Virus record (IMG/VR): IMGVR_UViG_3300018023_000026
Location: 1 to 27,574 of that record
Reading direction: 5' to 3' (one strand)
Origin: a virus
DNA: 27,574 bases
Each line of letters opens with the position of its first letter. Within the stretch, counting starts at the first letter, position 1. Positions 1-26,648 of this stretch are shown piece after piece. The position numbers and the translations under genes are program-made. The notes beneath the pieces are model-generated. The model made no database searches and was not told where the DNA came from. It saw nothing but the letters and a program-made list of their open reading frames with translations.

Positions 1-873
1 AATGTAAGCGGCAACGACTCCAATGATGGTCTGGACCCGACTACGCCGAAGCTCACCATCACGGCGGCAGTAAACAGCCTGCCTCCGGTCCTCCGTCACC
101 CCTGTTCCATTCAACTTATCACCACGGGTATAGCGTATAACATCACCCGCCTCGCTTCCACTTTGCAGGTAATCGCTCTTGGTGATGGAACACTTCGTAC
201 TGCCAAGTGGTATGCTCTTGCTAATCTCGCCTTCTCCATTCAGGAAGAGGGACGTATTGTTATCACTAGCACGGCGAGTGCTACCAGTCCTATCGTCATT
301 GACGCCACAGGATTCAGTGGATTTGGCGACGGGCCGACCTCGGCGTTCTTCGTAGACAACAGCCGGGTGTTGTTCAATAACATCCAGTTCCAAGGATTTG
401 TCAATCCCGCTGTTTACGGTATTGACTCCGATATAGAGTTTGTGTCTTGTGTGTTTGTCAACAATGCACAGGCGGGCGGGTTCGAGCAGGGCTGCGGTGT
501 TATTATGACCGGAGGTTCGGTCAGCTTGCCGACTTCCGGCACCGGCTTTGTCTTGTCTCAGTCGGAGCTTACTGTATCCGGTGTGGCCCTTGCCGTAGCG
601 GTCGGGGATACCCCCGGAGCTTTCTTCATCGCAGAGCGGTCCTCCTGCACCAACCTGTCTATGCACGGAATCAGTCAGGAGACAAATATTGCCCCCAGTA
701 CGGTTGTGGCTTACGCTCAGCTTAACTCCACCATCGTGGCGGACAGCACTTTCCAGACCGCAGGCGCAGCCAATCTGACGGCAAATTCGATATTGGCAAG
801 ATCAGTTGCTCTGGACCCCTTTATCGGGGGAATAACAACCGATTCTACAAGCTCTGTGGTTACACAGATTTAA
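1..873 (+). CDS. Tail spike / fibre-like beta-helix protein, 5' end outside window
   Basis: The frame is open from base 1 to the TAA at 871-873, giving 290 residues with no start in the window; a TTG at 163 is in frame, but the coding signal clearly continues upstream of it. The first visible residues (NVSGNDSNDGLDPTTPK, followed by LTITAAV) match the recurrent opening of right-handed beta-helix (pectin-lyase-like) domains in phage tail spikes and secreted adhesins. The rest is rich in G, S, T, V and N with short hydrophobic strands, as in a parallel beta-helix. Its place before the Ig-repeat and baseplate genes supports a receptor-binding or tail-appendage role. No catalytic residues for depolymerase activity can be identified, so enzyme function is not claimed. 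A GIY-YIG nuclease gene follows after 12 bases. Confidence 0.7.
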   Translation, partial: NVSGNDSNDGLDPTTPKLTITAAVNSLPPVLRHPCSIQLITTGIAYNITRLASTLQVIALGDGTLRTAKWYALANLAFSIQEEGRIVITSTASATSPIVIDATGFSGFGDGPTSAFFVDNSRVLFNNIQFQGFVNPAVYGIDSDIEFVSCVFVNNAQAGGFEQGCGVIMTGGSVSLPTSGTGFVLSQSELTVSGVALAVAVGDTPGAFFIAERSSCTNLSMHGISQETNIAPSTVVAYAQLNSTIVADSTFQTAGAANLTANSILARSVALDPFIGGITTDSTSSVVTQI

Positions 874-882
874 GGTTGTGTG
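861..882 (+). promoter_or_regulatory. Weak hairpin holding the SD of the first GIY-YIG gene
   Basis: ACACA at 862-866 can pair with TGTGT at 877-881, with one more T.G pair. The AAGG Shine-Dalgarno at 872-875 lies in the loop and ATG 886 is just downstream. Only 5-6 pairs form, so alone this would be ignored; it is listed because better hairpins sit at the same place on the other nuclease genes. Confidence 0.25.
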
Positions 883-885
883 TTT

Positions 886-1656
886 ATGAAAAAGTCTCGT
901 GTATGGCTAGTTTATCTTATCACTAATAAAGTGAATGGAAAGGTTTATGTTGGTCAGACTTCCAATGGGATAAAGACAAGATGGAGGGGACATTGTGCCG
1001 AAGTTAAAAGAAAGGGTCTTAGGCTCTATAGGGCATTAAAAAAGTATGGTCTTGAATCCTTTGACATAAAAGTGTTACATGGACCACATCTTTCTAAAGA
1101 AGAAGTTAACGTGCTGGAAATAAAGGAAATACTTAACCATCGTTCAACGAATCCTGATTTTGGATACAATTATAGTACCGGTGGTGAATGCTCAGCGATA
1201 GGGGTGAGGTGGTCACCTGAGAGTCGTATTCAGAGAAGCAAGATTATGACAGGTAGGAAACACACTTTGGAAACAAGAAAAAAGATAAGTTTGTCCCTTA
1301 AAGGAATCCATCGTGGGGCGTGTTCAATGGAAACTCGTGCTAAGATACGAGCAGCCAATACGGGAAAAGTTCGTTCGACTGAATGGTGCGCTAACTTAAG
1401 CAAGGTACGAACCGGTAAAAAATTATCCCCAGAAACTCGTGCCAAGTTAAGTCTTGCTATGACAGGAAAAACACTTTCGGATGAACATCGAGCAAAGATT
1501 AGAGCTTCTCTTCAACATACTATGGGTACACCAGAAATGTTTGCCAAATTGAGTGCTGCCCGTATTGGTCGTAAACATTCTCCCGAAACCATAGCCAAGA
1601 TTAGATTGGCGGCGATTAATCGGGAATCCTTAAAGAGGAAAACAAAAACTATATGA
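886..1656 (+). CDS. GIY-YIG homing endonuclease with NUMOD3-type repeats
   Basis: 256 residues from ATG 886; a GTG at 880 is in frame but leaves too little room after the AAGG at 872-875. The N-terminal ~95 residues are a GIY-YIG nuclease domain: the paired motif reads VYL...YVG (VYLITNKVNGKVYVGQT), followed by an arginine-bearing TRWRGH, a glutamate-containing LEIKEIL segment and the usual GYN..TGG end. Residues ~105-245 hold several NUMOD3-type DNA-binding repeats of the form SPETRAKLSLAMTGK. This is the layout of free-standing phage homing endonucleases, which cut at an empty allele and spread by recombination. Base composition is more AT-rich than in both neighbours. The stop overlaps the next start (ATGA at 1653-1656). 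Homing activity is inferred. Confidence 0.9.
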   Translation: MKKSRVWLVYLITNKVNGKVYVGQTSNGIKTRWRGHCAEVKRKGLRLYRALKKYGLESFDIKVLHGPHLSKEEVNVLEIKEILNHRSTNPDFGYNYSTGGECSAIGVRWSPESRIQRSKIMTGRKHTLETRKKISLSLKGIHRGACSMETRAKIRAANTGKVRSTEWCANLSKVRTGKKLSPETRAKLSLAMTGKTLSDEHRAKIRASLQHTMGTPEMFAKLSAARIGRKHSPETIAKIRLAAINRESLKRKTKTI

Positions 1657-8143: not shown

Positions 8144-8928
8144 GTTATGACTTCAATACCGGTCTCCAAGCATGTCCTCATACGATTTACGGGGAGAGGT
8201 ATGTAATTGATACTACAGATTTTATGACGTTGCACTTAGCGTCAAATCCGGCTTTGAACATGCGTGCTCCGATTAACGGTCAGGAGGTCGTACAACTTTA
8301 CATAAGCGGGGAGTTGGCTTCTCCAACGCCGGGAGCTAACAATCCCTATGCTTATCAGATTCTCCCGGATGAGAACCGGCTGAACACCAGCGCTCAGTTT
8401 TACAAAATAGTGTTCATCAAGCCGGTGAGGTGGTATGTTCCCCTGATTGAGGTGAGTTATATCACCCTTCAAGATTATTGCCTCCGATGCTCGGCTACGG
8501 GGCAGCTTAATGACTTTGTGATATCTCCGTATGGCACCATGCAGCGAGTTTGGGATACGAACAAGTTGGTGCAGAAGGTGTTGAAGTTCGTTCTCACCTC
8601 TACGTGTCCGTTTTATCCTCAGTTCACTTGTGCTATTCGGAGTTACATTGGTAAGAAGTTTGGGGTGACCATTACCGAAGCAGACATCTCTTCACAGATA
8701 ATGGATGCGCTCCAGAATATCAAAAACATTCAGTCCGCTCAAAGAACCGTGCAGAGTTTGAGCCTTTTGGAGATGCTTAAAGACATAGGAAATATTTCGA
8801 TAACGATGCCTGACCCAACGTCGGTAGCCGCCCAATGCGCCGTCACTTCTTATGGCAATCAGACTACGCCGTCTTCGGTTTCGTTTTCGATAACATCGTC
8901 TAGGCAGCTAGTGGGGAATCAACAATGA
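8140..8928 (+). CDS. Candidate baseplate wedge protein, gp25-like C-terminal half
   Basis: 262 residues, joined by ATGA overlaps to the genes on both sides (8140-8143 and 8925-8928). The C-terminal half, about residues 140-255, has the pattern of gp25/W-like wedge proteins: a helix (NKLVQKVLKFVLTS), then PFYPQFTCAIRSYIGKKFG, a helical stretch with DISSQIMDALQNIKNIQ, a LEMLKDIGNISI segment, and a C-terminal strand ending SSVSFSI. In contractile-tail phages gp25-like proteins initiate the wedge and contact the J-like protein, which is exactly the next gene. The N-terminal 130 residues are unassigned. The resemblance is by eye and sub-family level at best; profile comparison would decide it. Confidence 0.5.
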   Translation: MSYDFNTGLQACPHTIYGERYVIDTTDFMTLHLASNPALNMRAPINGQEVVQLYISGELASPTPGANNPYAYQILPDENRLNTSAQFYKIVFIKPVRWYVPLIEVSYITLQDYCLRCSATGQLNDFVISPYGTMQRVWDTNKLVQKVLKFVLTSTCPFYPQFTCAIRSYIGKKFGVTITEADISSQIMDALQNIKNIQSAQRTVQSLSLLEMLKDIGNISITMPDPTSVAAQCAVTSYGNQTTPSSVSFSITSSRQLVGNQQ

Positions 8929-11900
8929 TACCGCCCAGTGTAGGAAGTCCGCTCACGTTCATCACGCCGGTTATCACTTTCGGCAGTCCGCCTGTGCAGA
9001 TTAATGCCATGTCGGTGGATACCTCTGTTCTTCCGTATGTCATACAGGCTGGGCAGTCCTACGTGCGTCTTGAGGTTTCTCTTCCTTATGCTCAAAAAAT
9101 CACCACTACCCCCACTGTGTCAAATGGGGTAGCACAGTTTTCTGACAGCATCACTTTGGATGTTGGTTATGGGGATGCTTCTATTCAATTCTTAGCTCGT
9201 AATTACGACCCCAGCCAGATGGCTTGGGAGGCCAGCACTCCCCGTGCCGTGGGATATAGGTTTGTAGATGATAATGGCTACGTGCAGTTGGTTATCACCT
9301 CCACTGGGTCCACAGGAAGCAGTGAACCCACGGTGTTTACAACATCGGGAGCAGCCTCGGATTTGTCCGCTCCCGTTACCGGGATAGCGATATCCAACAA
9401 TTTGCTGACTGTTACTTCCAACCACAATTTTTCCGTGGGAATGACCGTTTCTTTTAACAACCTTTTGCAGGCCACTTTCCTGAACGGTGTGAGCGTAATC
9501 GTAGCTTCTGTGACTCCCACCAGTTTTACGGCTATTTACGCTTACACGGGGACTTATTCGCAACCCTCACCGGAATCTGGCACATCCGGCGTAGTTACAT
9601 CCGATGGAAATGTCACGTGGCTCAACGTGGGTTTCTACGCCATTTCTCCCACGGTGCAATTTACCATCGTTCCAGTGCAAAGTGGCCTTGCTCAAGTTAT
9701 CGGCCCACCTTCGGGAATAAACGCCTATAAATCTCAGGTAAGCTGTCGGATAGAATGGCTCATGCCTAATTTTGTTGGGGCTATCGGCGTTAAGGTGATG
9801 TTGTCCACAGACCCAGCCGGGGTGAATCCTCCGTATGTTCAGTATGGAGATGTTGTTCCTCTGACCCAAGTCAGCCGAGTGAATACGCAAATCACCAACA
9901 CCAACAGTGTGACTAATTACGACCCCACTACAGGACAGGAAATCATAACTACCACGAACAGTACCGTGGCCTACACCTATAACTACGTGGATGTTCCTCC
10001 CGGTGCGGTGAATAATGCCACGCAGTTTTATGCAATGCTATCCGTGGTTGTTCAAAGCCCTCTCAATAACGTCCTGTTTGAGAGTCAGCAAAGCGGACCG
10101 GTTACGTGTGGTTTTGTCAACTTATCTCTTGCTAACCCTACGGATTTTCTTGCTCTTCAACGGCAACAGGATATCGCCGGTCGGCTTATCACCCAAATGA
10201 CTCAGCTTTATCCCGACCTTGACTTGACTCCTCGTTCGGAGATAAGAGATTTGCTTATCGACCCAGTGTCGATTGAACTCAGCAACATGAGTGTTCGTGA
10301 GTGGTTTTCACGGTGCGCCCAATCGGTATCGGCAATAAGCCAGATAGATAATGTAAGTGGTAACGGGGTTAGTGACACCTTTAATGCTTCTCCTATAAAG
10401 CAGCAGATTGCCCGAGCTTATGGGCTTAATGCCGCCGATACTCAGACATTCATTGACCAACAATTCGACCATCTCGGACAGTCTGTGGGTCTCACTCGTG
10501 GAGGAGCTACACCATCGGTCGTCAATCTCACTTTCTATACCTATAGCCAGCCCACAACGACCACCACCTTTCCTACTGGCATCATCTGTTCTACCACAGG
10601 AGACGCCTCTACCCCATCCATTAACTTCCAGACTACCGGTTCGGCCTCCATCACCCCATCCTCCGCTGCCTCATTTTACAACCCCGTGTATGGTTGGTGG
10701 GGAGTTACAGTTCCGGCATCTTGCCAAACCACCGGCTCCAGTACCAATGTGGGAGCGGGGACTATCAACTCTATCGGCTCCAATGCCCCGGCAGGGTGGT
10801 CGGTCACCAACCTTGCGGCGGCTACCTTCGGAGTTGATGATGAAATCAACTCTCACTTCGCCGCTCGCATTGTCAACCGGCAGTTTACTGGAGTGGACTC
10901 GGGAACCCGCAATGGGTATTACACCACGGCAGCATCCACACCGGGCATCGTTGCGGTAGAAGTGGTAGCAGCCGGTGACCTTGAGATGGTTCGTGACTGG
11001 GATAACATTCGGCAAAAGCACGTGTTTGGTTGTGTGGACGTTTACTGTCAGGGAACTTCCTCCTCCGAGGAGGATGACATCGTATCGTTTGAATATGATA
11101 ATGCCAGTGCTCCGGGAGTATACAGCACCTACCTTCCACTCACCCTCGTGTCGGCTACCAACAACCTACTCAAGTTTCAGGTTGCCAGCGCCAACTTTCA
11201 AGCGCTTAATTGGCCTCTCTACCAAGGAGTGGAGCTTCTCGTTCAAGGGCTTTCCAACTCCTTCTTCCTTGATATCAGTGAGGCACAGTTCGACACCAAT
11301 GGCGGATACATCATCCTTAATCCCAGCGCCAATGCCTACTACATCTCCGGGAGCGGGGCAACACAGGTCAGAATTTCTTATCCTACGCTCGCCGCTCCAC
11401 TGAGCAATCTCGCCGCCGTGCAGGGCGTGGGATTCAACGGCACCTATCTCCTGAATGCCCGGCTCCAGTCTCCCCTCGTGGATACCCCCACGAATCAGCC
11501 GGTCACCAACGTCAACTCGGTCATCGGGCAGACGAATTTCACCGGCACCATCCCCGAGGCCCTGTTGGACCTCGTACACACCTCTGACTTCCTGCTCAAT
11601 GGTGGGTCTAATCAGGCGGGTGACATGGTGCAGGTGGTCTCCACCGCTACAACCCCCATCACTGTGACCATCACCGCTAGCACCACTACACCTGTAACCA
11701 TCGGCACCGCCATGGATATCTCCGTTGACCCTAGTGGTGTTTTGGGGGATGTCCTCTCAGTCCGTTCTTCGGACCTGTCTACCCTGTATGTCAACGGGTC
11801 TGATTACACCTTGGTGCCAGAGCCGTCTCCTTACGGCACCCCCGCAGGGCCTTATGTCGGCTGCTACGCTACCTACGGCCTTAAAACACTCACCGTGTCC

Positions 11901-13391: not shown

Positions 13392-13404
13392 GTATGATTA
13401 TATA
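13364..13404 (+). promoter_or_regulatory. Weak AT-rich hairpin covering the start of the second GIY-YIG gene
   Basis: TATAAATTAT at 13364-13373 can pair with ATGATTATATA at 13394-13404: ten pairs, one of them T.G, with one bulged A. The start codon (13394) is in the stem and the SD-like CAGGAAC is in the 20-base loop. Nearly all pairs are A-T, so stability is doubtful. Confidence 0.3.
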
Positions 13405-14062
13405 CTTGGTACGATGTTTAGTAAATCAAAAAGTTTATATCGGAAAGGCTTCGGGAAATACCCCGTCAAAAAGATGGTCAAGGCATAAGCAAGAAGCAAA
13501 GAGAGGAAGCCAGACCCACTTTCATAGAGCTATTCGAGCGTATGGAGAAACGGCGTTTGAAGTATGCTTGTTATCCGGGTTTGTGGCATCTAAACAAGAC
13601 CTCAACGCTCAAGAAAGATATTTCATAGGGAAATATCAATCTAATAATCCTATTTTTGGATATAACATAACTGGGGGTGGAGATGGACATGACGGTTTTG
13701 TACCTTCTATGGAACATAAACTTTCGATTAGCTTCAAACTCAAAGGCAAACCAAAGATTGAAACTCATCGGTATAACGCCGCCGAAGCTAAAAAGAAGTA
13801 TTGGGGGCGTATAGGCGACGTTATTAATCTTAGAATTAAGGGATGCACTTTTAGAGAAATTAGCAAGCAACTAGGATTTTCCTATATGACAGCCAGCAGA
13901 CTTTGGAAAATCTCGGGTTATTCCGACGATGCTAAGCTCAATGAGCTTATTCGTCAACAAAAAAACTCTCGTATAGGAATAGCTAAAAAACAATGGTGGG
14001 GTGAGCATCGTTATTCCTCCCCATTAAAGGAACCCAAGGCTATAGTAGTTAAGGCTGCCTAG
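13394..14062 (+). CDS. GIY-YIG homing endonuclease with C-terminal helix-turn-helix
   Basis: 222 residues. The N-terminal ~95 residues carry the GIY-YIG pattern as IYL...YIG (MIIYLVRCLVNQKVYIGKAS), then KRWSRHK, a glutamate in NAQERYFIGKYQS and FGYNITGGGDG. About residues 148-175 (GDVINLRIKGCTFREISKQL) form a helix-turn-helix of the resolvase/NUMOD1-like sort, probably the DNA-recognition part; a short basic tail follows. The gene sits between the baseplate J-like gene (stop 13391) and the tail-tip gene (ATG 14064) with 2 and 1 bases between. SD is CAGGAAC at 13381-13387. It is far more AT-rich than its neighbours, both of which appear complete, so it is a free-standing insertion and not an intron-borne gene. 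Confidence 0.9.
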   Translation: MIIYLVRCLVNQKVYIGKASGNTPSKRWSRHKQEAKRGSQTHFHRAIRAYGETAFEVCLLSGFVASKQDLNAQERYFIGKYQSNNPIFGYNITGGGDGHDGFVPSMEHKLSISFKLKGKPKIETHRYNAAEAKKKYWGRIGDVINLRIKGCTFREISKQLGFSYMTASRLWKISGYSDDAKLNELIRQQKNSRIGIAKKQWWGEHRYSSPLKEPKAIVVKAA

Positions 14063-17325: not shown

Positions 17326-17995
17326 TGCCGCTGCACGGGGAAAGTGGGGGGAGAAAGTTCCTCCTCCGATAAAGAAGGGGAACATCACTGTCTACCGCCC
17401 GGACACCGGAGAGGTCCTTTACTCCGAGCACAATATCATCACGTCCATCTCCAGTTGGCTCTTTGCCCAGTTCATGGCGTGTGCTTCTCCCCTGAACCTC
17501 TCCCCGCCGCAGACTCAGCCGGTCAGCATCGCTGCTACGGAACCGGCATGGGGCGTCTGGGGGTTGGCATTGGGCGCTGGCAGTCCCACGTGGGCACCAA
17601 CTACCCAACCCGTGGAAACGGCCACTCAGGTGGAACTCATCCAGCCGCTCGCCCGTGTGCAGTTGAGCCGGGTGAACTTCGTTACTCAGGACAGCAGCGG
17701 TAACTGGAACCCGCAGGCGGTGCTGACCACCAACGTGGAGTTTCAGACCACGGTAAACAGCACGACCAACAACATCAACCAAGGCATCCGGGAAATGGGC
17801 CTCATCGGCGGCGGTATTGCCAACATGGGCAGCTACACCATGTTGACCGCTCCGTACTTCAATGGCAATCCGTCCTCCTATGCCACAGTTCAAGCATCGC
17901 AGCAGACGGTCATACTTCTGAACTATAAGACACTTCCTCCACTTTTGTTACCTCCCGGAATAGATATAATCTTCAGTTGGATTTTTTCCTTTTAG
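17258..17995 (+). CDS. Phage structural protein, function unknown
   Basis: 245 residues from ATG 17258, preceded by GAAGGGA (17244-17250); a GTG at 17225 is in frame but has no SD. The N-terminus is a short charged helix (MENQARLESPALVKLREQAA), then a beta-rich body with GNITVYRPDTGEVLYSEHN and an INQGIREMGLIGG segment of the kind seen in tail-appendage proteins. No catalytic motif is visible. It overlaps the Nudix gene by 68 bases, implying coupled translation and a shared function in tail or virion assembly. The last ~60 bases are markedly AT-rich, just before the nuclease gene at 18090. Confidence 0.6.
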   Translation: MENQARLESPALVKLREQAAQLNAAARGKWGEKVPPPIKKGNITVYRPDTGEVLYSEHNIITSISSWLFAQFMACASPLNLSPPQTQPVSIAATEPAWGVWGLALGAGSPTWAPTTQPVETATQVELIQPLARVQLSRVNFVTQDSSGNWNPQAVLTTNVEFQTTVNSTTNNINQGIREMGLIGGGIANMGSYTMLTAPYFNGNPSSYATVQASQQTVILLNYKTLPPLLLPPGIDIIFSWIFSF

Positions 17996-18001
17996 TTGAT
18001 T

Positions 18002-18038
18002 CTAAAGGACTTATCTTAGTTTTTGGTAAGTCCTTTAG
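18002..18038 (+). terminator. 14-bp stem-loop after the structural gene, possible terminator
   Basis: CTAAAGGACTTATC (18002-18015) pairs with GGTAAGTCCTTTAG (18025-18038): 13 Watson-Crick pairs and one T.G, with a 9-base loop. It begins 7 bases after the stop at 17995. No T-run follows the stem (AAACTAC does), so it is not a textbook intrinsic terminator. It could act instead as a transcript-end stabiliser or a processing site. Confidence 0.4.
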
Positions 18039-18052
18039 TAAACTACAAGATG

Positions 18053-18091
18053 ATGACTTTCACAGTATTTAGTATACGAGGTGAAAGTTAT
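18053..18091 (+). promoter_or_regulatory. Hairpin sequestering SD and start of the PD-(D/E)xK gene
   Basis: ATGACTTTCAC (18053-18063) pairs with GTGAAAGTTAT (18081-18091): eleven pairs, one a G.T. The right arm ends on the A and T of start codon ATG 18090, and the SD GAGGTG (18079-18084) straddles loop and stem. The 17-base loop is AT-rich. Folding would hinder ribosome loading. The geometry is nearly the same as at 19904-19940. Confidence 0.6.
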
Positions 18092-18977
18092 GATTGAACT
18101 AGAGATTTCTTCAAAAACCGAAAAGTGTGCTTGGGGTTGTGGCCAGCCAGCTAAGTTTTACTCTGATAAATCCTATAAACCACGTTGGACATGCTCCCGT
18201 CTATGGCAGGGGTGTCCTGCTATGATTGAAAAGGGACGAGCGAAATATACTGCCACTATGATGGAGCACTATGGTGTCCCAGTGCCCACCAAGAACCCCG
18301 CTGTCGATGCCAAACGTCGTAAGACCAACTTGAAACGCTACAAAGCTGAACAGGTAATGCGGTCTGTCAAGGTTCAAAATAAGTATAAAAAAACCCTACA
18401 GACCCGTCACGGGGTGACCCACATTAGCCAAATTCCCGGCGTGTTAGAAAAGGCCAATGCCACACGAATGGAAAATGGGACATTTGGTGGGGACTTGAAG
18501 AAGAGAAATATGACAAGTCAAGCTAAATATGGTACTGACTGGCCTATCCAAGACCCCGATGTTTTCCAGCGCAATGTGGATTCCTGCTTCAAGCACAAGG
18601 TCTTCGTCCTTCCCTCCGGGGCAATCGTGTTCCTCCAAGGCTATGAGCCATATGTGGTTACCCATATGCTTAATGATGGCTACAAAGAACAGGACTTCCA
18701 GTGGCGTAACAAGCCATCGTTCTGGTACACGGACAAGGCTGGAAGGAGACGCCGCTACCACCCAGATTTGGTTCTCCCTACCCACAATTCAATTGTGGAG
18801 GTCAAGGCAAGGAAGTGGTTTGAGCGTGACTTGGACCTCATTATCCGTAAAGGTCGGGCTTGCCAAGATGCTGGTTGGGAGTTTACGGTTGCCGTGATGG
18901 GCAACAATATCAGGAAACGGGAAAATAACCCCATTGAGTTTATCCCCTTTCGGTTCCTTATACAGGAGCCAGCATGA
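18090..18977 (+). CDS. PD-(D/E)xK-type homing endonuclease with zinc finger and repeats
   Basis: 295 residues from ATG 18090; GTG 18081 is in frame but lies within the GAGGTG SD. Residues 13-42 form a probable zinc finger (C13, C17, C34, C42). About residues 60-170 carry repeats of the type TLQTRHGVTHISQIPGVL and TSQAKYGTDWPIQDPDVF, familiar from phage homing nucleases. The nuclease core is at ~200-260: RYHPDLVLP gives P225-D226, and IVEVKA gives E237 and K239, a PD-(D/E)xK arrangement as in very-short-patch-repair-like (Vsr/EDxHD) enzymes. Those domains are known homing folds, so a homing role is likely, though a phage-borne DNA modification or repair nuclease is possible. Its TGA overlaps the next ATG (18974-18977). 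Confidence 0.75.
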   Translation: MIELEISSKTEKCAWGCGQPAKFYSDKSYKPRWTCSRLWQGCPAMIEKGRAKYTATMMEHYGVPVPTKNPAVDAKRRKTNLKRYKAEQVMRSVKVQNKYKKTLQTRHGVTHISQIPGVLEKANATRMENGTFGGDLKKRNMTSQAKYGTDWPIQDPDVFQRNVDSCFKHKVFVLPSGAIVFLQGYEPYVVTHMLNDGYKEQDFQWRNKPSFWYTDKAGRRRRYHPDLVLPTHNSIVEVKARKWFERDLDLIIRKGRACQDAGWEFTVAVMGNNIRKRENNPIEFIPFRFLIQEPA

Positions 18978-19387
18978 ACTACTATACGGCACGACAGCGA
19001 ACAGACGGCAGATGGGACTTCACCTGTAATGGTCACCCGTGGGGTTATTGTCGTCCGTATGAGGAATTCAAGAAAGGGTCAGTGTTCAGCGACGGAGAGG
19101 TGGAGCGCTATAACCTCCGGTATGGGAAGTTCAAAGAGAAGTATCACACCGATGGGCACGCTACGAAGGAGGAAGCAGGCGAGTGCTACAAGCAATACCT
19201 GCTTGACCACAAGTACCGTGAGGGCGAGGATAGCGGGACACAGAGAAAGTGCGATGTGTGCAAGGCTTGGACCAGCAGGTTTGTAGAAGTGGATTGCCAC
19301 ATTTGGATGCTGTGCGACGAGCACCGGAACCGTGCCGAGTTGGAGAAGCTGATGGAGACCCCGGACACGATTTGGTCAAGTTGGTAG
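18974..19387 (+). CDS. Small cysteine-rich phage protein, unknown function
   Basis: 137 residues. ATG 18974 overlaps the preceding stop; SD AGGAG 18964-18968 lies inside the nuclease gene. The C-terminal half has CDVC...C...C..H (KCDVCKAWTSRF, then DCHIWMLCDEH), a likely zinc-binding treble-clef-like site. The N-terminal half is aromatic and polar (MNYYTARQRTDGRWDFTCN). No family was identified. Base composition matches the virion genes rather than the nuclease genes, so it is a resident phage gene. Its stop TAG forms part of the SD of the next gene (TAGGAG, 19385-19390). Confidence 0.6.
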   Translation: MNYYTARQRTDGRWDFTCNGHPWGYCRPYEEFKKGSVFSDGEVERYNLRYGKFKEKYHTDGHATKEEAGECYKQYLLDHKYREGEDSGTQRKCDVCKAWTSRFVEVDCHIWMLCDEHRNRAELEKLMETPDTIWSSW

Positions 19388-19394
19388 GAGATTC

Positions 19395-19892
19395 ATGGGG
19401 AACATCTTAGCGGTGCAGTTGGGAGAATGGCAGGAGTTGTCGGATGGCGTAGTTGACACCGGCTATCGTGTCGTTCTCTCTACGCAACGTGTCCAGATGA
19501 ATGTTCAGACCACCACTTTTTGGGGACAACAGATTCTCATGGCGACCGGCTCCCCATGGGGGGTGGGAACCGTGGACATCGGCTCCCTTTCGGTCATCGC
19601 CCAGTTTAACCTATTCCTCAATCAGTTCGTAGGCAAGCGCCGGGGGTGGGGACAGTTCGTCAATGTTCCCTACAATCCCTCTTACTATCTCGCCCGCACC
19701 TACGTTATCGCCGTCCCCGAGGCCGAGCCGCCCGAGTCTGCCGGTCCTATGATTCTGCTTGCCAGCGGCTATGACCCCCTCAAGGGTTGGTGGTTGACCT
19801 TCAAGGGGAACTTCCGCCTGCACATCCCCATCTTCCAAGATTTCTGTCCGGTGGAGAACCAGACACCGGATTATCGGATTAAAATCAGTTGA
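19395..19892 (+). CDS. Probable virion/tail protein, unknown function
   Basis: 165 residues from ATG 19395, behind TAGGAG at 19385-19390. The protein is beta-rich and tryptophan/aromatic-rich (VQTTTFWGQQILMATGSPWG), with RRGWGQFVNVPYNPSYYLAR in the middle, and has no transmembrane segment or catalytic motif. Composition and position place it with the structural genes upstream, from which it is separated by the inserted nuclease gene and a small cysteine-rich gene. A tail or appendage role is inferred from position only. Confidence 0.55.
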   Translation: MGNILAVQLGEWQELSDGVVDTGYRVVLSTQRVQMNVQTTTFWGQQILMATGSPWGVGTVDIGSLSVIAQFNLFLNQFVGKRRGWGQFVNVPYNPSYYLARTYVIAVPEAEPPESAGPMILLASGYDPLKGWWLTFKGNFRLHIPIFQDFCPVENQTPDYRIKIS

Positions 19893-19903
19893 CGACTGGA
19901 AAA

Positions 19904-19940
19904 ATGAACTTTTTAAAGTATCTATAAGGAAAAAGTTCAT
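19904..19940 (+). promoter_or_regulatory. Hairpin sequestering SD and start of the third GIY-YIG gene
   Basis: ATGAACTTTTT (19904-19914) and AAAAAGTTCAT (19930-19940) pair perfectly over 11 bases. The 15-base loop (19915-19929) contains the start of the AAGGA Shine-Dalgarno (19926-19930), and the right arm ends on the first two bases of ATG 19939. Confidence 0.6.
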
Positions 19941-20715
19941 GTTCATATATCTCATCGTTAACCATAAGACCGGCAAATATTATGTCGGTCAGCATAAGGG
20001 AAATAACCTTAAAAAGTATCTTCAAACGAAACTGTCTGGTGCAAGGCATCAAAAAAACGGAAAATCCCACCTTTTTAATGCCATGCGGAAGTACCCACAA
20101 GCTACCCTATGGTCTATTCATGCCCTTCGTTCTGACATTCAAACCCGAGGAGAACTTGACGAGACCGAACGAGATTTCATCAAGTTTCTAAAAGCCCAAG
20201 ACCCTGAATATGGTTATAACATTTGCCGAGGAGGAGAAGGATTCACGGGGCCATGTTCCAAAGAAACTCGTCAAAAAATATCTATCCATAGTAAGAAAAT
20301 GTGGGAAGATTCTGAATTTCGTATCAGACAATCAGAAGCCATGAAAAGGGGATGGGCTGATGAAGAACGCTCTAAACAAGCGGAAATTGCTAAGAGAAGG
20401 TGGTCTAACCCTGAGTTTAAGGATAAACTATCTGAAATTCAAAAAAAATCACAGATTAGAGTAGAAGTCGTAACTAAAAAAAGTAAAATTGGGAAAGAAA
20501 TCTGGTCTGATTCCGAACGACTTGCAAAGAGGGGTAAAAAAATCAGTGAGGCTCTATCTAAACCGGAAGAACAAATTAGAAGGTCGGAGGCGGCTAAAAA
20601 GCGATGGACTGACCCGGAATATCGTGCTAGCATGAGTAAGCTTTCAAAGGAGTTGTGGTCTGACCCAAATTATCTAATCAAAATGAGTAAAAGAGGACAA
20701 AAATTGGTAATATAA
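19939..20715 (+). CDS. GIY-YIG homing endonuclease with W-(S/T)-(N/D)-P repeats
   Basis: 258 residues. The GIY-YIG domain occupies about 1-105: IYL...YVG (MFIYLIVNHKTGKYYVGQHK), the catalytic-glutamate region LDETERDFIKFL, and EYGYNICRGGEG. The remainder is a string of basic helical repeats of the form KRRWSNPEFKDKLSEI, KKRWTDPEYRASMSK and KELWSDPNYLIKMSK, a repeat style common in the DNA-binding part of phage homing nucleases. SD is AAGGA at 19926-19930. The gene is strongly AT-rich against both neighbours, lies 46 bases after the previous stop and 13 before the next start, and interrupts no recognisable reading frame. Confidence 0.88.
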   Translation: MFIYLIVNHKTGKYYVGQHKGNNLKKYLQTKLSGARHQKNGKSHLFNAMRKYPQATLWSIHALRSDIQTRGELDETERDFIKFLKAQDPEYGYNICRGGEGFTGPCSKETRQKISIHSKKMWEDSEFRIRQSEAMKRGWADEERSKQAEIAKRRWSNPEFKDKLSEIQKKSQIRVEVVTKKSKIGKEIWSDSERLAKRGKKISEALSKPEEQIRRSEAAKKRWTDPEYRASMSKLSKELWSDPNYLIKMSKRGQKLVI

Positions 20716-20728
20716 TTAGGAGAAGAAT

Positions 20729-22263: not shown

Positions 22264-22812
22264 ATGCCCACCTTTAACTTTAAGTCGTCTTTCTTGAAAT
22301 CCGCCGCTTTGGTTCGCCACCCGGAATACATGTCAATCCCCGAACTGAAAGAAGCCGCTGCTGGGTCCGCCCCGAGAGAATACCCCGTGAAGAAGGATAA
22401 GGAAGGCTTCTGGTATGTCATGGGTCTACCCGGCGAGGAGCTTTCCGAGGGAATTAAGGATGCTCCTGTTGTTCCTACCCCCAACACGTGGCTGAACGTT
22501 CACAACGAAGTCAAGGGGCTGGAACTGGCTGAACAGCTTTATCGAGAGCTTTACGCTGAGTTCCAAACCAACGACAACCTCCGGGAGGGCGATGTATTCA
22601 GCACTCCCATGGGCAAGTTCATCTGTCAGGGAGTGGATGTTCTTCCTTATGACGAACCGGCTAAACGTATCATTGGCGAGGTGGATGACAGCTACAAATG
22701 CATTTGTGGCTGTGATTCGAGTGAACATCGCAGAGCTATAGATGAAAATGGATTCCAGTATCATGCTGAGTGCTCCAAATGCCAAGATTGTAAAGAATAT
22801 ACAAAAAGATAA
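22264..22812 (+). CDS. Phage protein with C-terminal zinc-binding cysteine cluster
   Basis: 182 residues from ATG 22264, with GAGGAG at 22255-22260. The alternative in-frame ATG at 22234 has no SD and overlaps the ASCH gene. The N-terminus begins MPTFNFKSSFLKSAALVRHP and the middle is acidic and helical (ELAEQLYRELYAEFQTND). The last ~40 residues hold a dense Cys/His cluster (KCICGCDSSEHRR...YHAECSKCQDC), predicted to bind one or two zinc ions. No known family is assigned. The last ~60 bases become AT-rich before the following HNH gene. Confidence 0.6.
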   Translation: MPTFNFKSSFLKSAALVRHPEYMSIPELKEAAAGSAPREYPVKKDKEGFWYVMGLPGEELSEGIKDAPVVPTPNTWLNVHNEVKGLELAEQLYRELYAEFQTNDNLREGDVFSTPMGKFICQGVDVLPYDEPAKRIIGEVDDSYKCICGCDSSEHRRAIDENGFQYHAECSKCQDCKEYTKR

Positions 22813-22821
22813 CTACGCACA

Positions 22822-22853
22822 TCTTCTTATGGGGGTTTTACACTATGGGAAGA
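22822..22853 (+). promoter_or_regulatory. Hairpin covering SD and start of the first HNH gene
   Basis: TCTTCTTAT (22822-22830) pairs with ATGGGAAGA (22845-22853): nine pairs, two of them T.G. The 14-base loop opens with the GGGGG SD (22831-22835), and the whole start codon ATG 22845 is in the right arm. Confidence 0.5.
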
Positions 22854-23549
22854 CCAGTTGATTTGGTAGGAGTAAGGTTTGGAAAGTTGGTTGTTAAATC
22901 TAAAGCTGAGAATTTATATGGAAAAACAAGATGGTTATGCCTCTGTGATTGCGGAACCACAAAAATAATACAAACAGGTAGCCTTCGTGGCAAGCGAACA
23001 AGGAGTTGTGGATGTAATTTAGGAATGAAGGTACTCCCTAAAGACCTAACCGGGCGGGTTTTCGGGAAACTTATAGCACTTAGGATGGTCAGTCGTCAGC
23101 CCCCCAAATGGGAATGCCGTTGTGGTTGTGGTAAAGTCAAGGTTGTTAAGTCAACAAGCTTGCTGATGATACATGGAGTTAGAAGTTGTGGATGCTTCCG
23201 TGGGTTTTCAAGCCGTAAACAACCATTCGAGTCTCTTTATAACAGGGTGCGTCAGAGTGCAGCTAAACGCAGTGTACCTTTTGACCTTTCATATGCTGAT
23301 TTTATTTCTTATACCGTTGTATCCAACTGCCATTATTGTGGGGACATGGTTTCTTGGACGAAGTGGAATGTCGGTAAGAAAGGACCGACAAACCTTGACC
23401 GTAAGGATTCATCGCTTGGATATTCCAAAAATAACTTGGTAGTAAGTTGTACCCGTTGTAATAAAGCTAAGCTCGACCACTTCACCTACGAGGAGTGGCT
23501 GCGAATTGGAAAACTTATCCGTCAGATGCGAGAAGAAATTAAAGTTTAG
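22845..23549 (+). CDS. HNH homing endonuclease with tandem zinc/AP2-like repeats
   Basis: 234 residues. Two tandem N-terminal repeats of about 50 residues (VDLVGVRFGKLVV...SCGC at 5-57, KDLTGRVFGKLIA...SCGC at 66-107) each carry cysteine pairs; this repeat type precedes HNH domains in many phage nucleases and resembles AP2-like DNA-binding modules. The HNH domain is at ~150-200: C152-x2-C155 (CHYCGD), NLDRKDSS with Asp175, SKNNLVV with Asn187, and C192-x2-C195 followed by NKAK. The classical His at the DH position is replaced by D-R (LDR), as in several active phage HNH enzymes with that motif. AT-rich against neighbours; 32 bases after the preceding stop. Confidence 0.85.
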   Translation: MGRPVDLVGVRFGKLVVKSKAENLYGKTRWLCLCDCGTTKIIQTGSLRGKRTRSCGCNLGMKVLPKDLTGRVFGKLIALRMVSRQPPKWECRCGCGKVKVVKSTSLLMIHGVRSCGCFRGFSSRKQPFESLYNRVRQSAAKRSVPFDLSYADFISYTVVSNCHYCGDMVSWTKWNVGKKGPTNLDRKDSSLGYSKNNLVVSCTRCNKAKLDHFTYEEWLRIGKLIRQMREEIKV

Positions 23550-23577
23550 AATTTTACCTTCCAAATCGTCCGTAACG

Positions 23578-23602: not shown

Positions 23603-23851
23603 ATGGATGACCTCACGAAAGAATTGAAAGAGGAGTCGGAGAAACTCACTGACGAGTACTTTTGCAACCCTACCTCCATGGATTATATGGTGGTTAACAG
23701 CATTTTGGTGCGGGGTTTCATCATGGGGTGCAATCATGCTAAGGGCATTTTTTACCCGAAACTGGCTGACCCCGTAGCCGCTGTGGCGGAAGTCAGTAAG
23801 GGTCTTTTCGAGAAAGCTATGTCGGGTTTTGTGCCTCTTGGAAAGAAATAA
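23603..23851 (+). CDS. Small phage protein, 82 residues, unknown
   Basis: ATG 23603 preceded by GGTGGAGGA (23590-23598); the GTG at 23591 is inside the SD. The protein starts with a charged helix (MDDLTKELKEESEKLTDEYF) and continues with a hydrophobic-amphipathic part (MDYMVVNSILVRGFIMGCN) that is too interrupted for a firm transmembrane call. No family is recognised. It stands alone between an inserted HNH gene and the gene-free RNA-like stretch and has its own likely promoter. Confidence 0.6.
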   Translation: MDDLTKELKEESEKLTDEYFCNPTSMDYMVVNSILVRGFIMGCNHAKGIFYPKLADPVAAVAEVSKGLFEKAMSGFVPLGKK

Positions 23852-23872
23852 CTGCAAAAAACCGACTACCGG

Positions 23873-23881
23873 TGGTATTAT
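23873..23881 (+). promoter_or_regulatory. Extended -10 promoter ahead of the candidate ncRNA
   Basis: TGG plus TATTAT (23876-23881). The surrounding bases resemble those of the 23578 promoter: both read GTGGTAT...TAG then a GGAGG-like purine block. Transcription would begin near 23888. No ORF follows the purine block, and no strong -35 is seen. Confidence 0.4.
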
Positions 23882-23887
23882 ATAGAA

Positions 23888-24206
23888 GGAGGGAGCTACG
23901 GCTCTACTCCTAACCGGGAACCTTCTTGTCCCAGAAAAATGGCTGGTCTTAAAAGGGCCTCCCGTTAGGTTAGACCCCGAAGCGGACTCGGACAAGGTCC
24001 CGGCGAATTACAGCAGATATACCCATCCGGGGTGGACGCTAGGCGACCGCCCCGGACATTCAAAGAGAAGCGCAATGTTGACTATCACCATGCCGCACAC
24101 ACAAACGCAAACTACGATTAGTTCAGGCGGCGGAGCCTGCTTGGCATAACAAAGACCAAGCCGAGACTCAGCAGCCGCCATTCTTTCTGGCGGCTTTCGT
24201 GTTTTA
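23888..24206 (+). ncRNA. Candidate structured noncoding RNA (about 320 nt)
   Basis: This ~350-base gap between genes has no convincing ORF but is rich in hairpins. GAGC-TACG-GCTC (23893-23904) has a C(UACG)G tetraloop. CCTAACCGGGA (23909-23919) pairs with TCCCGTTAGG (23960-23969) with one bulge. GACCCCGA (23973-23980) pairs with TCGG (23988-23991) and GGTC (23996-23999) across a 4-base bulge. CCGGGGTGG (24027-24035) pairs with CCGCCCCGG (24047-24055). CAGGC/GCCTG (24124-24139) and GCTTGG/CCAAGC (24139-24161) are adjacent. A promoter-like extended -10 lies just before and an intrinsic terminator closes it. It does not show RNase P or tmRNA core motifs. A 24-codon ORF at 24075-24149 is the only coding alternative and has no good SD. 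Confidence 0.4.
24173..24206 (+). terminator. Intrinsic terminator
   Basis: AGCCGCCA (24173-24180) and TGGCGGCT (24188-24195) form a perfect 8-bp GC-rich stem with a TTCTTTC loop, followed by T-rich TTCGTGTTTTA. On the minus strand no T-run follows, so it acts on plus-strand transcripts. It ends the candidate ncRNA and precedes the gene at 24217. Confidence 0.65.
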
Positions 24207-24582: not shown

Positions 24583-24657
24583 GCGCCTGTCATATAGCGA
24601 CGAATATGCTCCCTCGATAGGGGAGTCACGAAGGTTTGAGTCCTTCCGGGCGCACCA
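24583..24657 (+). tRNA. tRNA-like gene, Ile(GAT) by geometry, atypical
   Basis: Full cloverleaf: acceptor GCGCCTG/CGGGCGC (one T.G), D-stem ATAT/ATAT, anticodon stem CTCCC/GGGAG, T-stem GAAGG/CCTTC with loop TTTGAGT, discriminator A and encoded CCA. Oddities: the anticodon loop is TCGATAG, placing C at position 33 where U is near-universal; the D-loop AGCGACGA lacks GG. Canonical geometry gives anticodon GAT (24616-24618). Shifting the loop one base to recover U33 gives CGA (Ser) but breaks the stem. It could be a decayed tRNA. It starts 6 bases after the preceding gene. Confidence 0.6.
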
Positions 24658-24669
24658 AAGATTGGACTT

Positions 24670-24710
24670 TTGAACCACTATTATAGGAGCATACTATAAT
24701 GGTGGTTCAA
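24670..24710 (+). promoter_or_regulatory. 17-bp hairpin sequestering start of the HNH gene at 24699
   Basis: Seventeen bases at 24670-24686 (TTGAACCACTATTATAG) pair with 24694-24710 (CTATAATGGTGGTTCAA), with a single T.G, around a 7-base loop. AGGAG (24685-24689) is split between stem end and loop, and ATG 24699 is fully in the stem. This is the strongest of the nuclease-start hairpins in the window. Confidence 0.75.
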
Positions 24711-25541
24711 TGTGAGAACGAGAAGTGCAAGAAAGAGCATGATGGGTCGTATGGGTCAGGGCGGTTCTGTTCCGAGTTTTGTGCTAGAAATTTTGTTTCA
24801 ACACAGAATCGGAAGGAGAAGAACAAAAAAATATCCCTTAAGCTTTATGGTCATAAGGTAAGTCAAGAGGCTAGGGAAAGAGCGGGTCGGCACTCAAGCC
24901 AAACCAAGCTTAGACAGTTGTTGGAAGCGGATTTTGATTCCTTGACCGTTGAGAGCAAGAAGAAACGGGTTATCGTTGAGCAAGACAAGGCTTGCTCTCG
25001 TTGTGGAATTAAGGAGTGGATGGGAACTCCTCTGACGTTGCAGGTTGACCATGCTGACGGGGATACGCAAAATAATCAGCGTGAGAACCTTCGAGGTCTA
25101 TGCCCTAATTGCCACAGCCAGACGCCGACATACTGTGGTAAAGGAAGGGGAAGGGGTCATAGGAAAGGCGATTACGAAATAACTGATGAGCGGCTTTTAG
25201 TAGCTCTACTTGAGACTCGTAGCATTGGCGCAGCCTTGGAGTCTCTTGGGAAGAATCGCAATGCCTTAAACTATCGTCGCTGTAAGGCACTTTTGGAGCG
25301 ACATGGTGGAATGACAGCCGAGGCGTGTAAACTAGCAGAGTGCGGATTCTGCCATCAAGAGCTAAAAGACCGTCCTCACGAAGAAGGAAAGTTGAAGTTT
25401 TGCAACCAGTCTTGTTCCGGGAAGTTCCGTGCGCTTGTAAGACACGGAAATTTGAAGACCAGTCTTAGTTCAACGGTAGAACTTGCGACTGATAATCGCA
25501 CAACGGAAGTTCGACTCTTCCCGACTGGACCAAGTTTTTAG
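24699..25541 (+). CDS. HNH homing endonuclease; frame runs through tRNA-Ile
   Basis: 280 residues. N-terminal cysteine pairs (CENEKCKKEH, then FCSEFC) form a likely zinc finger. The HNH core is at ~99-145: CSRC, LQVDHADGDTQNN with the D-H pair, ENLRGLCPNCHSQT. Residues ~165-200 (DERLLVALLETRSIGAALES) look like a helix-turn-helix, and a second zinc finger (CGFCHQEL...FCNQSC) is near 218-248. SD is AGGAG 24685-24689. The last 28 codons contain the whole tRNA-Ile gene at 25459-25532 and the stop lies 9 bases after it, so the C-terminal ~30 residues are probably a by-product of insertion beside the tRNA rather than a functional domain. Confidence 0.85.
   Translation: MVVQCENEKCKKEHDGSYGSGRFCSEFCARNFVSTQNRKEKNKKISLKLYGHKVSQEARERAGRHSSQTKLRQLLEADFDSLTVESKKKRVIVEQDKACSRCGIKEWMGTPLTLQVDHADGDTQNNQRENLRGLCPNCHSQTPTYCGKGRGRGHRKGDYEITDERLLVALLETRSIGAALESLGKNRNALNYRRCKALLERHGGMTAEACKLAECGFCHQELKDRPHEEGKLKFCNQSCSGKFRALVRHGNLKTSLSSTVELATDNRTTEVRLFPTGPSF
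25459..25532 (+). tRNA. tRNA-Ile(GAT), inside the 3' end of an HNH gene
   Basis: Cloverleaf with D-stem GTTC/GAAC, anticodon stem TGCGA/TCGCA, loop CTGATAA (anticodon GAT at 25491-25493, U33 present), T-stem GGAAG/CTTCC with TTCGACT, discriminator A and encoded CCA. The acceptor CCAGTCT/CGACTGG has one T-C mismatch at 7-66. It lies entirely within the HNH reading frame that ends at 25541. Confidence 0.85.
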
Positions 25542-25588: not shown

Positions 25589-25591
25589 TAT

Positions 25592-25667: not shown

Positions 25668-25673
25668 TTTTTA

Positions 25674-25748
25674 GCCCTCGTAGCTCAGTGGTAGAGCATT
25701 CCCTTGGTAAGGGAGGGGTCGTCAGTTCGATTCTGACCTTGGGCTCCA
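25674..25748 (+). tRNA. tRNA-Thr(GGT)
   Basis: D-stem GCTC/GAGC, anticodon stem TTCCC/GGGAG (one T.G) with loop TTGGTAA (GGT at 25706-25708), T-stem GTCAG/CTGAC with TTCGATT, discriminator T, encoded CCA. The acceptor GCCCTCG/CTTGGGC has two internal mismatches (positions 5 and 6). It starts 6 bases after the Thr(CGT) tRNA. Confidence 0.85.
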
Positions 25749-25807
25749 AGTTTTATTGAGTATTTTTTTAGAATGGAGACAACTGTAATTCCCAAATTCT
25801 CAACTAT

Positions 25808-25830
25808 CTCCACCTTTATTGGGGGTGGAG
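25808..25830 (+). promoter_or_regulatory. Hairpin sequestering SD of the HNH gene at 25832
   Basis: CTCCACC (25808-25814) pairs perfectly with GGTGGAG (25824-25830), which is the SD-like block immediately before ATG 25832; the 9-base loop includes GGG, part of an alternative SD GGGGG (25821-25825). Confidence 0.5.
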
Positions 25831-25831
25831 T

Positions 25832-26284
25832 ATGGACCACTATAAGGTAAGAAATCAGTTGGGGATGCCTTTTGGAACAGCAAGTGGAAGGTTGTTGAAG
25901 CAACTACTTTTCCATATGGCGAAGCAACTTAATTTGGATAGCTGCTTTCAATGTGGCAAAAAGATTGAGAACGCCGCTCAGTTCTCTATTGAACACAAGA
26001 AACCTTGGCTGGATATGTCGCCTGACCTGTTTTGGGATTTAGGTAACATTGCCTTTTCTCACAAGTCATGCAACATTAGGGCGGCACGAAGGAATATTCC
26101 CAAGTTAAGAGAACAACTAGAAAGAGCTAGAATTAATCATGTAAACACAGCACCAGAAGGAGAAGCATGGTGCTATGGACATAAAAAGTTTCTGGGTAAG
26201 GGATTGTTCAATCTTAATAAGTGGCAACCCTCGGGAGTCCAGAGATTTTGTAGAGCATGTAGAAGTGGTGGTATCGGTCGTTAG
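25832..26284 (+). CDS. HNH endonuclease ending on a tRNA
   Basis: 150 residues. The HNH-type core has C38-x2-C41 (CFQCGKKI), FSIEHKKPWL with His55, LFWDLGNIAFSH with His77, and C80-N (SCNIRAARR). A second zinc-knuckle-like element lies at the C-terminus (C114, H117, C140, C143: AWCYGH ... RFCRACRSG). The stop TAG (26282-26284) shares its G with the first base of the following tRNA. The gene sits between tRNA-Thr(GGT) and that tRNA and is AT-rich. HNH genes lodged in phage tRNA clusters are typically mobile; activity here is inferred. Confidence 0.8.
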   Translation: MDHYKVRNQLGMPFGTASGRLLKQLLFHMAKQLNLDSCFQCGKKIENAAQFSIEHKKPWLDMSPDLFWDLGNIAFSHKSCNIRAARRNIPKLREQLERARINHVNTAPEGEAWCYGHKKFLGKGLFNLNKWQPSGVQRFCRACRSGGIGR

Positions 26285-26369
26285 CCGGGTTAGCCTAGTG
26301 TACGATGGCACCTGTCCTGTAAGCAGGCGGAGAAATCCCACGTGGGTTAAAATCCCGCACCCGGCTCCA
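26284..26369 (+). tRNA. tRNA with class-II-like variable arm; Thr(TGT) or Tyr(GTA)
   Basis: Perfect acceptor GCCGGGT/ACCCGGC, 3-bp D-stem GCC/GGC, T-stem GTGGG/CCCGC with loop TTAAAAT, discriminator T, encoded CCA. The anticodon stem CCTGT/GCAGG encloses CCTGTAA: standard geometry gives TGT (Thr) but with C33. Taking the T of CTGTAA as U33 gives GTA (Tyr), at the cost of a 4-bp stem and 9-base loop. The 14-base variable region can form GGA-GAAA-TCC, as in class II tRNAs such as bacterial Tyr. Identity is unresolved. Confidence 0.75.
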
Positions 26370-26408
26370 GTTTCCAAATGCACCATTTTTGATGCGTTTG
26401 ACATAGAT

Positions 26409-26496
26409 TGGGAAGTGGTGTAATTGGTAACACGCCTGACTTTGAATCAGGAGACAGTAAATGCTTGTGAGGGTTCGAGTCCCTCCTTCCCATCCA
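26409..26496 (+). tRNA. tRNA-Gln(TTG) with a 17-base variable region
   Basis: Perfect acceptor TGGGAAG/CTTCCCA (T1-A72 fits Gln), D-stem GTGT/ACAC, anticodon stem CCTGA/TCAGG with CTTTGAA (TTG at 26442-26444), T-stem GAGGG/CCCTC with TTCGAGT, discriminator T, encoded CCA. The variable region AGACAGTAAATGCTTGT (26452-26468) is far longer than the ~5 bases of normal tRNA-Gln. Confidence 0.85.
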
Positions 26497-26503
26497 GCTT
26501 TAT

Positions 26504-26581
26504 TCCAGAGTAGTGTAATTGGTAACACGCCGGGCTTTGAACCCGTTGAGACTGGAGGTTCGAGTCCTCCCTCTGGAACCA
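26504..26581 (+). tRNA. tRNA-Gln(TTG)-like, paralogue of the preceding tRNA
   Basis: Perfect acceptor TCCAGAG/CTCTGGA, D-stem GTGT/ACAC, anticodon stem CCGGG/CCCGT (outermost pair C-T mismatched) with CTTTGAA (TTG at 26537-26539), T-stem GGAGG/CCTCC with TTCGAGT, discriminator A, encoded CCA. It shares the D-arm run GTGTAATTGGTAACACGCC and the anticodon loop with the upstream tRNA-Gln, but positions 2 and 3 are C, not the G-G usual for Gln, so charging is uncertain. Confidence 0.85.
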
Positions 26582-26623
26582 AAGTTTTCAATAATTTATA
26601 ATTTTTCGTACCTTGACTTCGTA

Positions 26624-26648
26624 TCTCTTTAGTATGAGTCTAAAGAGA
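26624..26648 (+). promoter_or_regulatory. Hairpin presenting the start codon of the HNH gene at 26634 in its loop
   Basis: TCTCTTTAG (26624-26632) and CTAAAGAGA (26640-26648) pair perfectly over 9 bases. The 7-base loop TATGAGT contains ATG 26634. There is no clear SD for this gene. Confidence 0.55.

Follow-up and report, generated by a model that had tools for sequence, protein, structure and literature searches.

How a homing-nuclease gene sitting in a phage operon avoids being expressed at the wrong time is a question raised eight times over by the virus record IMGVR_UViG_3300018023_000026, a linear stretch of 27,574 nucleotides (nt) that was analysed whole and is called here the 27.6-kb window. 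A first-pass annotation had proposed that all eight nuclease genes of the window can fold a hairpin over their own translation start. The hairpin observation is real for six of the eight genes and, for the group, lies far beyond chance. What the earlier reading missed is a two-block motif nested in these hairpins, the part that would make the block a switch. We put at roughly 70% the probability that the arrangement represents a T4-like timing switch built on another promoter, in another lineage, and carried by the nuclease cassette.

Gene starts were taken from our own caller. The segment from -40 to +25 around each start was folded and compared with dinucleotide shuffles (z of the minimum free energy, MFE), and in an opening test the cost of opening -15 to +5 was expressed as the fraction of 100 dinucleotide shuffles that reach it (opening fraction). 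At six of the eight nuclease starts, opening the region from the Shine-Dalgarno sequence (SD) to the AUG costs more than in 96% or more of the shuffles, and the six hairpins lie where they had been drawn. Start 13394 is borderline (opening fraction 0.05, MFE z -0.75) and start 886 is not occluded (0.96, MFE z -1.29); these two starts lie 2 and 12 nt, respectively, past the upstream stop. The pairing at 861-882 falls inside the coding end of the gene upstream of 886 (stop at 871-873), in a stretch that aligns to the related record G013, which has no nuclease gene there and in which the repeat is less perfect. The proposal that all eight genes share the feature was rejected, since 886 and 13394 have no convincing hairpin or motif. 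Among 17 non-nuclease starts of the window, the opening fraction is 0.03 at 18974, the one start of the 17 to pass the opening test, and 0.05 at 23603, the latter a borderline case for which a short pairing had already been remarked. The mean MFE z is -2.55 for the eight nuclease starts against -0.05 for the 17 others (p = 3.5e-5), and the mean opening z is 2.34 against 0.30 (p = 0.004); if the shuffle correction is left off, the two groups cannot be told apart by raw MFE (p = 0.29). The start hairpins and motif blocks, with the motif scores in bits, are as follows; G017 is a longer record of the same phage.

18053-18091, plus strand: start hairpin of gene 18090, 11 base pairs (bp), MFE z -2.33, opening fraction 0.01; motif TGACTTTC at 18054-18061 and TTAGTATA at 18069-18076, 14.2 bits, as in the G017 copy.
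19904-19940, plus strand: start hairpin of gene 19939, 11 bp, MFE z -2.80, opening fraction 0.00, with covariation among homologues; motif GAACTTTT at 19906-19913, spacer taaagta, and TCTATAAG at 19921-19928, directly before the SD, 18.3 bits.
22810-22853, plus strand: motif and hairpin of gene 22845; TAACTACG at 22810-22817, CTTATGGG at 22826-22833, 12.8 bits; hairpin 22822-22853, MFE z -2.21, opening fraction 0.04.
24664-24710, plus strand: motif and 17-bp hairpin of gene 24699; GGACTTTT at 24664-24671, ATTATAGG at 24680-24687, 20.4 bits; hairpin 24670-24710, MFE z -8.06, opening fraction 0.00.
25801-25830, plus strand: motif and hairpin of gene 25832; CAACTATC at 25801-25808, TTTATTGG at 25815-25822, 20.6 bits; hairpin 25808-25830, MFE z -2.03, opening fraction 0.02.
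26624-26648, plus strand: start hairpin of gene 26634, 9 bp, AUG in the loop, no clear SD, MFE z -0.94, opening fraction 0.02.

All eight genes match endonuclease families in Pfam and/or PHROGs, in agreement with their first-pass designation as nucleases. Genes 880(886) and 13394 are GIY-YIG by Pfam and gene 19939 by PHROGs, genes 22845, 24699, 25832 and 26634 belong to the HNH family, and gene 18081(18090) matches DUF7487 and phrog_3339.

886-1656, plus strand: GIY-YIG endonuclease; start not occluded; best motif score 3.7 bits.
13394-14062, plus strand: GIY-YIG endonuclease; marginal hairpin; weak motif, 9.9 bits.
18090-18977, plus strand: DUF7487 / phrog_3339 homing endonuclease; the open reading frame (ORF) list has GTG 18081.
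19939-20715, plus strand: GIY-YIG-type homing endonuclease; phrog_314.
22845-23549, plus strand: HNH homing endonuclease; phrog_374.
24699-25541, plus strand: HNH endonuclease; phrog_10822; HNH_3 slightly below the Pfam cut-off.
25832-26284, plus strand: HNH endonuclease by Pfam/PHROGs.
26634-27392, plus strand: HNH endonuclease; phrog_10822.

The excess of structure at nuclease starts over shuffled and non-nuclease starts extends from the window to its lineage and to wider loci. The lineage set comprised twelve sequences (nine records, L110, L114 and the window), from which near-identical starts were removed, as were non-nuclease genes with a start score below 4.5 or shorter than 90 amino acids (aa). 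In this set the MFE z is -1.16 at 64 nuclease starts and -0.02 at 538 others (p = 2e-9), and the opening z 1.49 and 0.13 (p = 1.5e-9). Before any relabelling, the motif described below scores at least 12 bits at 39 of the 64 nuclease and 26 of the 538 other starts; ten of these motif-bearing other starts were checked, and five match endonuclease PHROGs. Seven motif-bearing genes were relabelled as nuclease, five with PHROGs support and two (L300:11221 and L301:4056, from families of unknown function) by eye, so that counts made on the relabelled set favour the motif. With this set the MFE z is -1.17 at 71 nuclease and -0.00 at 531 other starts (p = 6e-11), and the 71 also differ from 196 AT-rich controls (p = 2e-9). 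Across 202 loci, filtered likewise, 169 nuclease and 545 other starts give -0.99 and 0.00 (p = 8.6e-13). For the loci not fetched as relatives, a set defined by how loci were fetched rather than by phylogeny and including L122 and probably other lineage-like contigs, the values are -0.87 at 142 nuclease starts (one of them from the window itself, L001) and -0.02 at 431 others (p = 4e-8); by type they are -1.77 for 24699-like (n = 29), -0.95 for 26634-like (n = 29) and -0.35 for 22845-like genes (n = 74, p = 0.052). The hairpin feature is thus common among nuclease genes, not universal. A predicted opening z above 2 occurs at 24 of the 71 lineage nuclease starts (36 of the 531 others), and these figures, with six of eight genes here, 3 of 15 starts in T4 at an MFE z below -2 and a weak effect for 22845-like genes, do not bear out the first-pass idea of a general rule for such insertions. 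In L122, two nuclease starts have strong hairpins (z -7.1 and -6.0), and the two-block motif can be seen at both by eye.

The k-mers enriched upstream of the nuclease genes resolve into GRACTWTC, a gap of about 7 nt and YTTATAGG. The motif, (AAAAAT)GRACTWTC-N7-YTTATAGG following an A-rich stretch, is common to several nuclease families, with block 1 in or beside the 5' arm of the hairpin and block 2 mostly in the loop, just 5' of the SD. The stems had been described as unrelated in sequence, which is only partly right: their 5' arms have RACTWYC in common, held constant by the promoter-like motif that the leaders share. In the window the motif stands at the hairpin in five of the eight genes (18090, 19939, 22845, 24699 and 25832). 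Gene 26634 is an exception, in that the top hit of the matrix (12.2 bits) lies elsewhere than at the hairpin and a motif seen by eye and left unscored, TGACTTCG at 26614-26621 and TTTAGTAT at 26628-26635, overlaps the AUG. The seed of the matrix was chosen by eye among nuclease leaders. When only the 19939 family is used for training, the matrix detects 16 of the 51 nuclease starts that belong to other families, as against 8 of 531 starts of non-nuclease genes, 1 of 45 AT-rich controls and 0.6 of 51 after shuffling. Base composition as the cause is rejected by this cross-family matrix, by the AT-rich controls and by the shuffles. Structure tracks the motif, with a z of -1.68 where it is present (n = 39) and -0.33 where it is absent (n = 25).

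The two-block motif is probably a phage promoter of the late class. At 15 bits, seven contigs, among which related ones were not deduplicated, hold 74 hits, namely 28 at nuclease starts, 27 in other intergenic positions and 19 in coding sequence; five shuffles of the seven contigs gave 17-28 hits in total, and therefore about 3.4 intergenic and 17 coding hits are expected. Non-nuclease instances precede genes of about 1280 aa in G001, G003 and G013 and a tail-fibre-like gene in G013, and one lies in the window:

23863-23886, plus strand: CGACTACC-ggtggtat-TATATAGA, non-nuclease motif instance before a noncoding region; 15.0 bits in the G017 and G013 copies.

An identical copy of this instance is present in G013, and other contigs have similar ones. 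The region behind it, 23887-24198, is about 310 nt without a called gene and without an Rfam match, and is a candidate phage noncoding RNA. At L289:4374-4431 and L295:8535-8592, two motif copies overlap on opposite strands between divergent genes and form a near-palindrome (TGACTTTC..TAAGTAGA / TGACTTCT..TTAGTAGA), a possible two-way promoter. The motif could instead be a binding site displayed by the hairpin, serving the nuclease itself as an operator or an RNA-binding repressor. Such a role has a parallel in I-TevI, which according to PMC2988022 binds an operator overlapping its own late promoter, and an operator would be compatible with a promoter; nevertheless, the presence of the motif in several unrelated nuclease families, and also before structural-type genes and a noncoding region, is unlike a nuclease-specific operator, and we consider a binding site in place of a promoter improbable.

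The pairing of the hairpins is conserved among homologues. In 17 leaders of 19939 homologues the 5'-arm letters ACT are invariant, and the pairs just beyond them vary on both sides together: pair -2 is G-C in 9, C-G in 5, T-A in 1 and G-T in 1, pair -3 is T-A in 9, A-T in 3, G-C in 1 and C-G in 1, and pair -4 is A-T in 8 and T-A in 3. Pairs were counted from single-sequence folds because the MAFFT leader alignment is not structure-aware on the 3' arm. Across 42 motif-bearing nuclease starts, the predicted pairing is -12.8 kcal/mol with the start's own arms and only -9.3 kcal/mol once 3' arms are exchanged between starts (p <= 0.0005; swap tests used 2000 or 5000 permutations, which sets the floor of their p-values). 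Swaps within families give p <= 0.0005 for 19939 (n = 15), p = 0.025 for 22845 (n = 10) and p = 0.049 for 886 (n = 7). Swaps at 14 non-nuclease starts with the motif have no effect (p = 0.83), on which ground structure arising from promoter overlap alone was rejected. The sense fold beats the antisense fold at 38 of 46 motif-bearing nuclease starts (mean -3.18 kcal/mol), at 13 of 25 other nuclease starts (-0.45) and at 311 of 531 non-nuclease starts (-0.85); the bias of motif-bearing nuclease starts over non-nuclease starts (p = 3.4e-4) therefore points to the RNA and not the DNA level, and the asymmetry speaks against a DNA palindrome. Together these data indicate that selection acts on the pairing, in RNA. 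It could be objected that the pairing is a by-product, either of a promoter block that resembles the complement of the SD and pairs by chance or of an AT-rich insert that folds by its composition. Part of the pairing is indeed cheap, because stem pairs 0 to 5 fall on the conserved block. However, the shuffle-corrected z and the AT-rich controls, the weakening of pairing by swaps within one family with no such effect at other motif-bearing genes, and the concerted change of pairs beyond the conserved block make this account very improbable. The first-pass suggestion that a T4-like hairpin control of read-through translation has been repeatedly selected therefore survives both tests proposed with it, comparison with shuffled and non-nuclease starts and compensatory change in homologues.

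Comparison with G013, which aligns to most flanks in the window at 88-98% identity (75-80% in the tRNA part), shows what was inserted. Three nuclease stretches are missing there, 17986-19384 being replaced by 7 nt, 19884-20724 by 176 nt and 22701-23562 by 126 nt, and the hairpin and motif fall within the missing DNA. This indicates that hairpin and motif travel with the nuclease gene, inside the inserted cassette. A 137-aa ORF at 18974-19387, directly after nuclease 18090 and in the same missing stretch, has no Pfam match. Beside three nuclease cassettes (13286-13391, 22701-22812 and 1653-1713) the protein is similar to that of G013 and the DNA strongly diverged (the rest being 88-90% identical), as if recoded gene ends and starts protected a resident target site.

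Under the proposed switch, messenger RNA (mRNA) reading through from upstream genes would contain both arms, fold and be poorly translated. Transcripts from the nested promoter would begin 3' of block 2, lack block 1 and the 5' arm, remain unfolded and be translated, so that in an operon a cassette would leave its nuclease unexpressed as long as its own promoter is inactive. Cutting the transcript after block 2 at the 42 nuclease starts lowers the predicted cost of opening the final leader bases together with the AUG from 9.05 to 3.42 kcal/mol. This predicted gain of 5.63 exceeds the 1.92 obtained when 150 non-nuclease starts are cut at matched distances (p = 7e-10) and the 2.65 of the 14 non-nuclease starts with the motif (p = 0.007). 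A simpler view is that the hairpin lowers nuclease translation at all times, as constitutive damping, and that the promoter merely overlaps it without a timed switch. This would suit the 25 of 71 nuclease starts that lack the motif at 12 bits, as well as the somewhat structured starts (mean z -0.70, n = 101) of nuclease genes outside the lineage that lack the T4 late promoter TATAAATA. Against it, structure accompanies the motif within the lineage, and the motif is sited such that its transcript must lose the 5' arm, with the drop in predicted opening cost just given; we regard constitutive damping as unlikely, though the least so of the alternatives.

Several points weigh against a timed switch. 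The 25 motif-less starts belong here too, as do the 26 of 46 motif-bearing nuclease starts that stay below an opening z of 2 and the 3 of 19 non-nuclease starts with the motif that exceed it. In the window, gene 26634 is a poor fit, and 886 and 13394 do not fit. The structure, pairing and swap tests ignore phylogeny. Searches of five records with PF00940, PF00562, PF04542 and T4 gp55 turned up neither a polymerase nor a sigma factor that might read the motif, the PF00940 and gp55 searches lacking a working positive control; PF08281 gave three below-cut-off matches in the five records, all in G008, with two lying within HNH genes. In many cases block 2 directly adjoins the SD, and with the spacing usual for sigma-type promoters the nested-promoter mRNA would lose part of the SD. 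The weakest step of the proposal lies here, since retention of the complete SD is decided by the precise position at which the transcript begins.

The closest parallels are in T4-type phages. Structures that sequester the ribosome-binding site (RBS), together with nearby late promoters, are described for I-TevI, I-TevII, I-TevIII, segB and Aeh1 mobE in PMC2988022. As in that group, the genes considered here are homing endonuclease genes in operons with a hairpin on the RBS, and a promoter, putative here, is placed so that short transcripts lose the 5' part of the hairpin. The T4 group differs in having T4-type promoters, shown or implicated case by case, whereas in the window lineage the predicted arrangement uses GRACTWTC-N7-YTTATAGG and recurs in many cassettes of several families. 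Since this motif is not TATAAATA and no gp55 match was found in the lineage (a search without positive control), the system would work like the T4 genes and is not filed as a member of the T4 late-promoter group. For gene e (lysozyme) of T4 and similar late genes, PMC3014915 describes long early transcripts that form an inhibitory structure, and late promoters just 5' of the RBS whose transcripts lack the 5' part of it. These are ordinary phage genes, not mobile cassettes, and, unlike that case, 16 of the 19 non-nuclease motif starts in the window lineage stay below an opening z of 2. In T4 itself (15 nuclease and 219 other starts), an MFE z below -2 picks out I-TevII, segB and I-TevI (-4.3, -6.4 and -4.2), and an opening z above 2 adds segF; the two groups differ weakly (p = 0.028 and 0.041), and I-TevIII escapes detection at its annotated start, which is defective.

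The T4 late promoter was also found at nuclease starts outside the lineage, where, with the window start removed, an exact TATAAATA lies within -60 to -8 of 16 of 141 nuclease and 7 of 431 other starts. With one mismatch allowed, 40 nuclease and 56 other starts have z values of -1.28 and 0.01 (p = 3e-5), and arm swaps at TATAAATA starts give p = 0.0002 for nuclease (n = 32) against p = 0.18 for other genes (n = 48). L160, L158 and L148 are clear cases of TATAAATA in the 5' arm. The portions available of PMC3037559, PMC5259590, PMC6690015, PMC2993671 and PMC3073962 describe no such control outside T4-type phages. The same holds for the literature searched, seen in part and with preprints and most subscription papers outside it, which is not proof that such control is unreported elsewhere.

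As to the phage itself, the 43.7-kb record G017 has 100% copies of six of the window's nuclease proteins and at least three more GIY-YIG-type nuclease genes (L300:2860, L300:15554 and L300:19158), and is thus very rich in such genes. The large gene at 8925-13391 is shared by eleven loci at 47-100% identity. A megablast search with 25 kb against named phages gave no match, and the sole named relative found, by protein search, was Tunturiibacter phage Tunturi_5 (44% identity over 52% of one query), described in PMC11924767 as a 309-kb jumbo phage of an Acidobacteriota host. Rfam at gathering thresholds gave six tRNA matches in the window and nothing else. HNH gene 24699-25541 overlaps with its 3' end a same-strand tRNA-Ile(GAT) gene at 25459-25532, and another tRNA-Ile(GAT) lies 41 nt upstream of its start (region 24583-25541); the final codons of this nuclease are therefore tRNA sequence.

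It is an even bet, in our judgement, whether a promoter nested in a hairpin that blocks the RBS forms a portable and recurrent timing module, reached separately with TATAAATA in some contigs and with GRACTWTC-N7-YTTATAGG in the window lineage, so that the late promoter of an uncultured phage could be found from its cassette hairpins. If true, a few case studies in the T4 family would become a comparative rule with numbers, namely that nuclease cassettes landing in operons often bring along a promoter within the hairpin that silences them, and this would explain why a nuclease gene inside an operon is not expressed at the wrong time. For this group of large soil phages, in which transcription is apparently unstudied, the motif would also supply a candidate class of promoter, and each cassette would carry one sharp prediction, namely that a transcript begins downstream of the 5' arm and upstream of the AUG.

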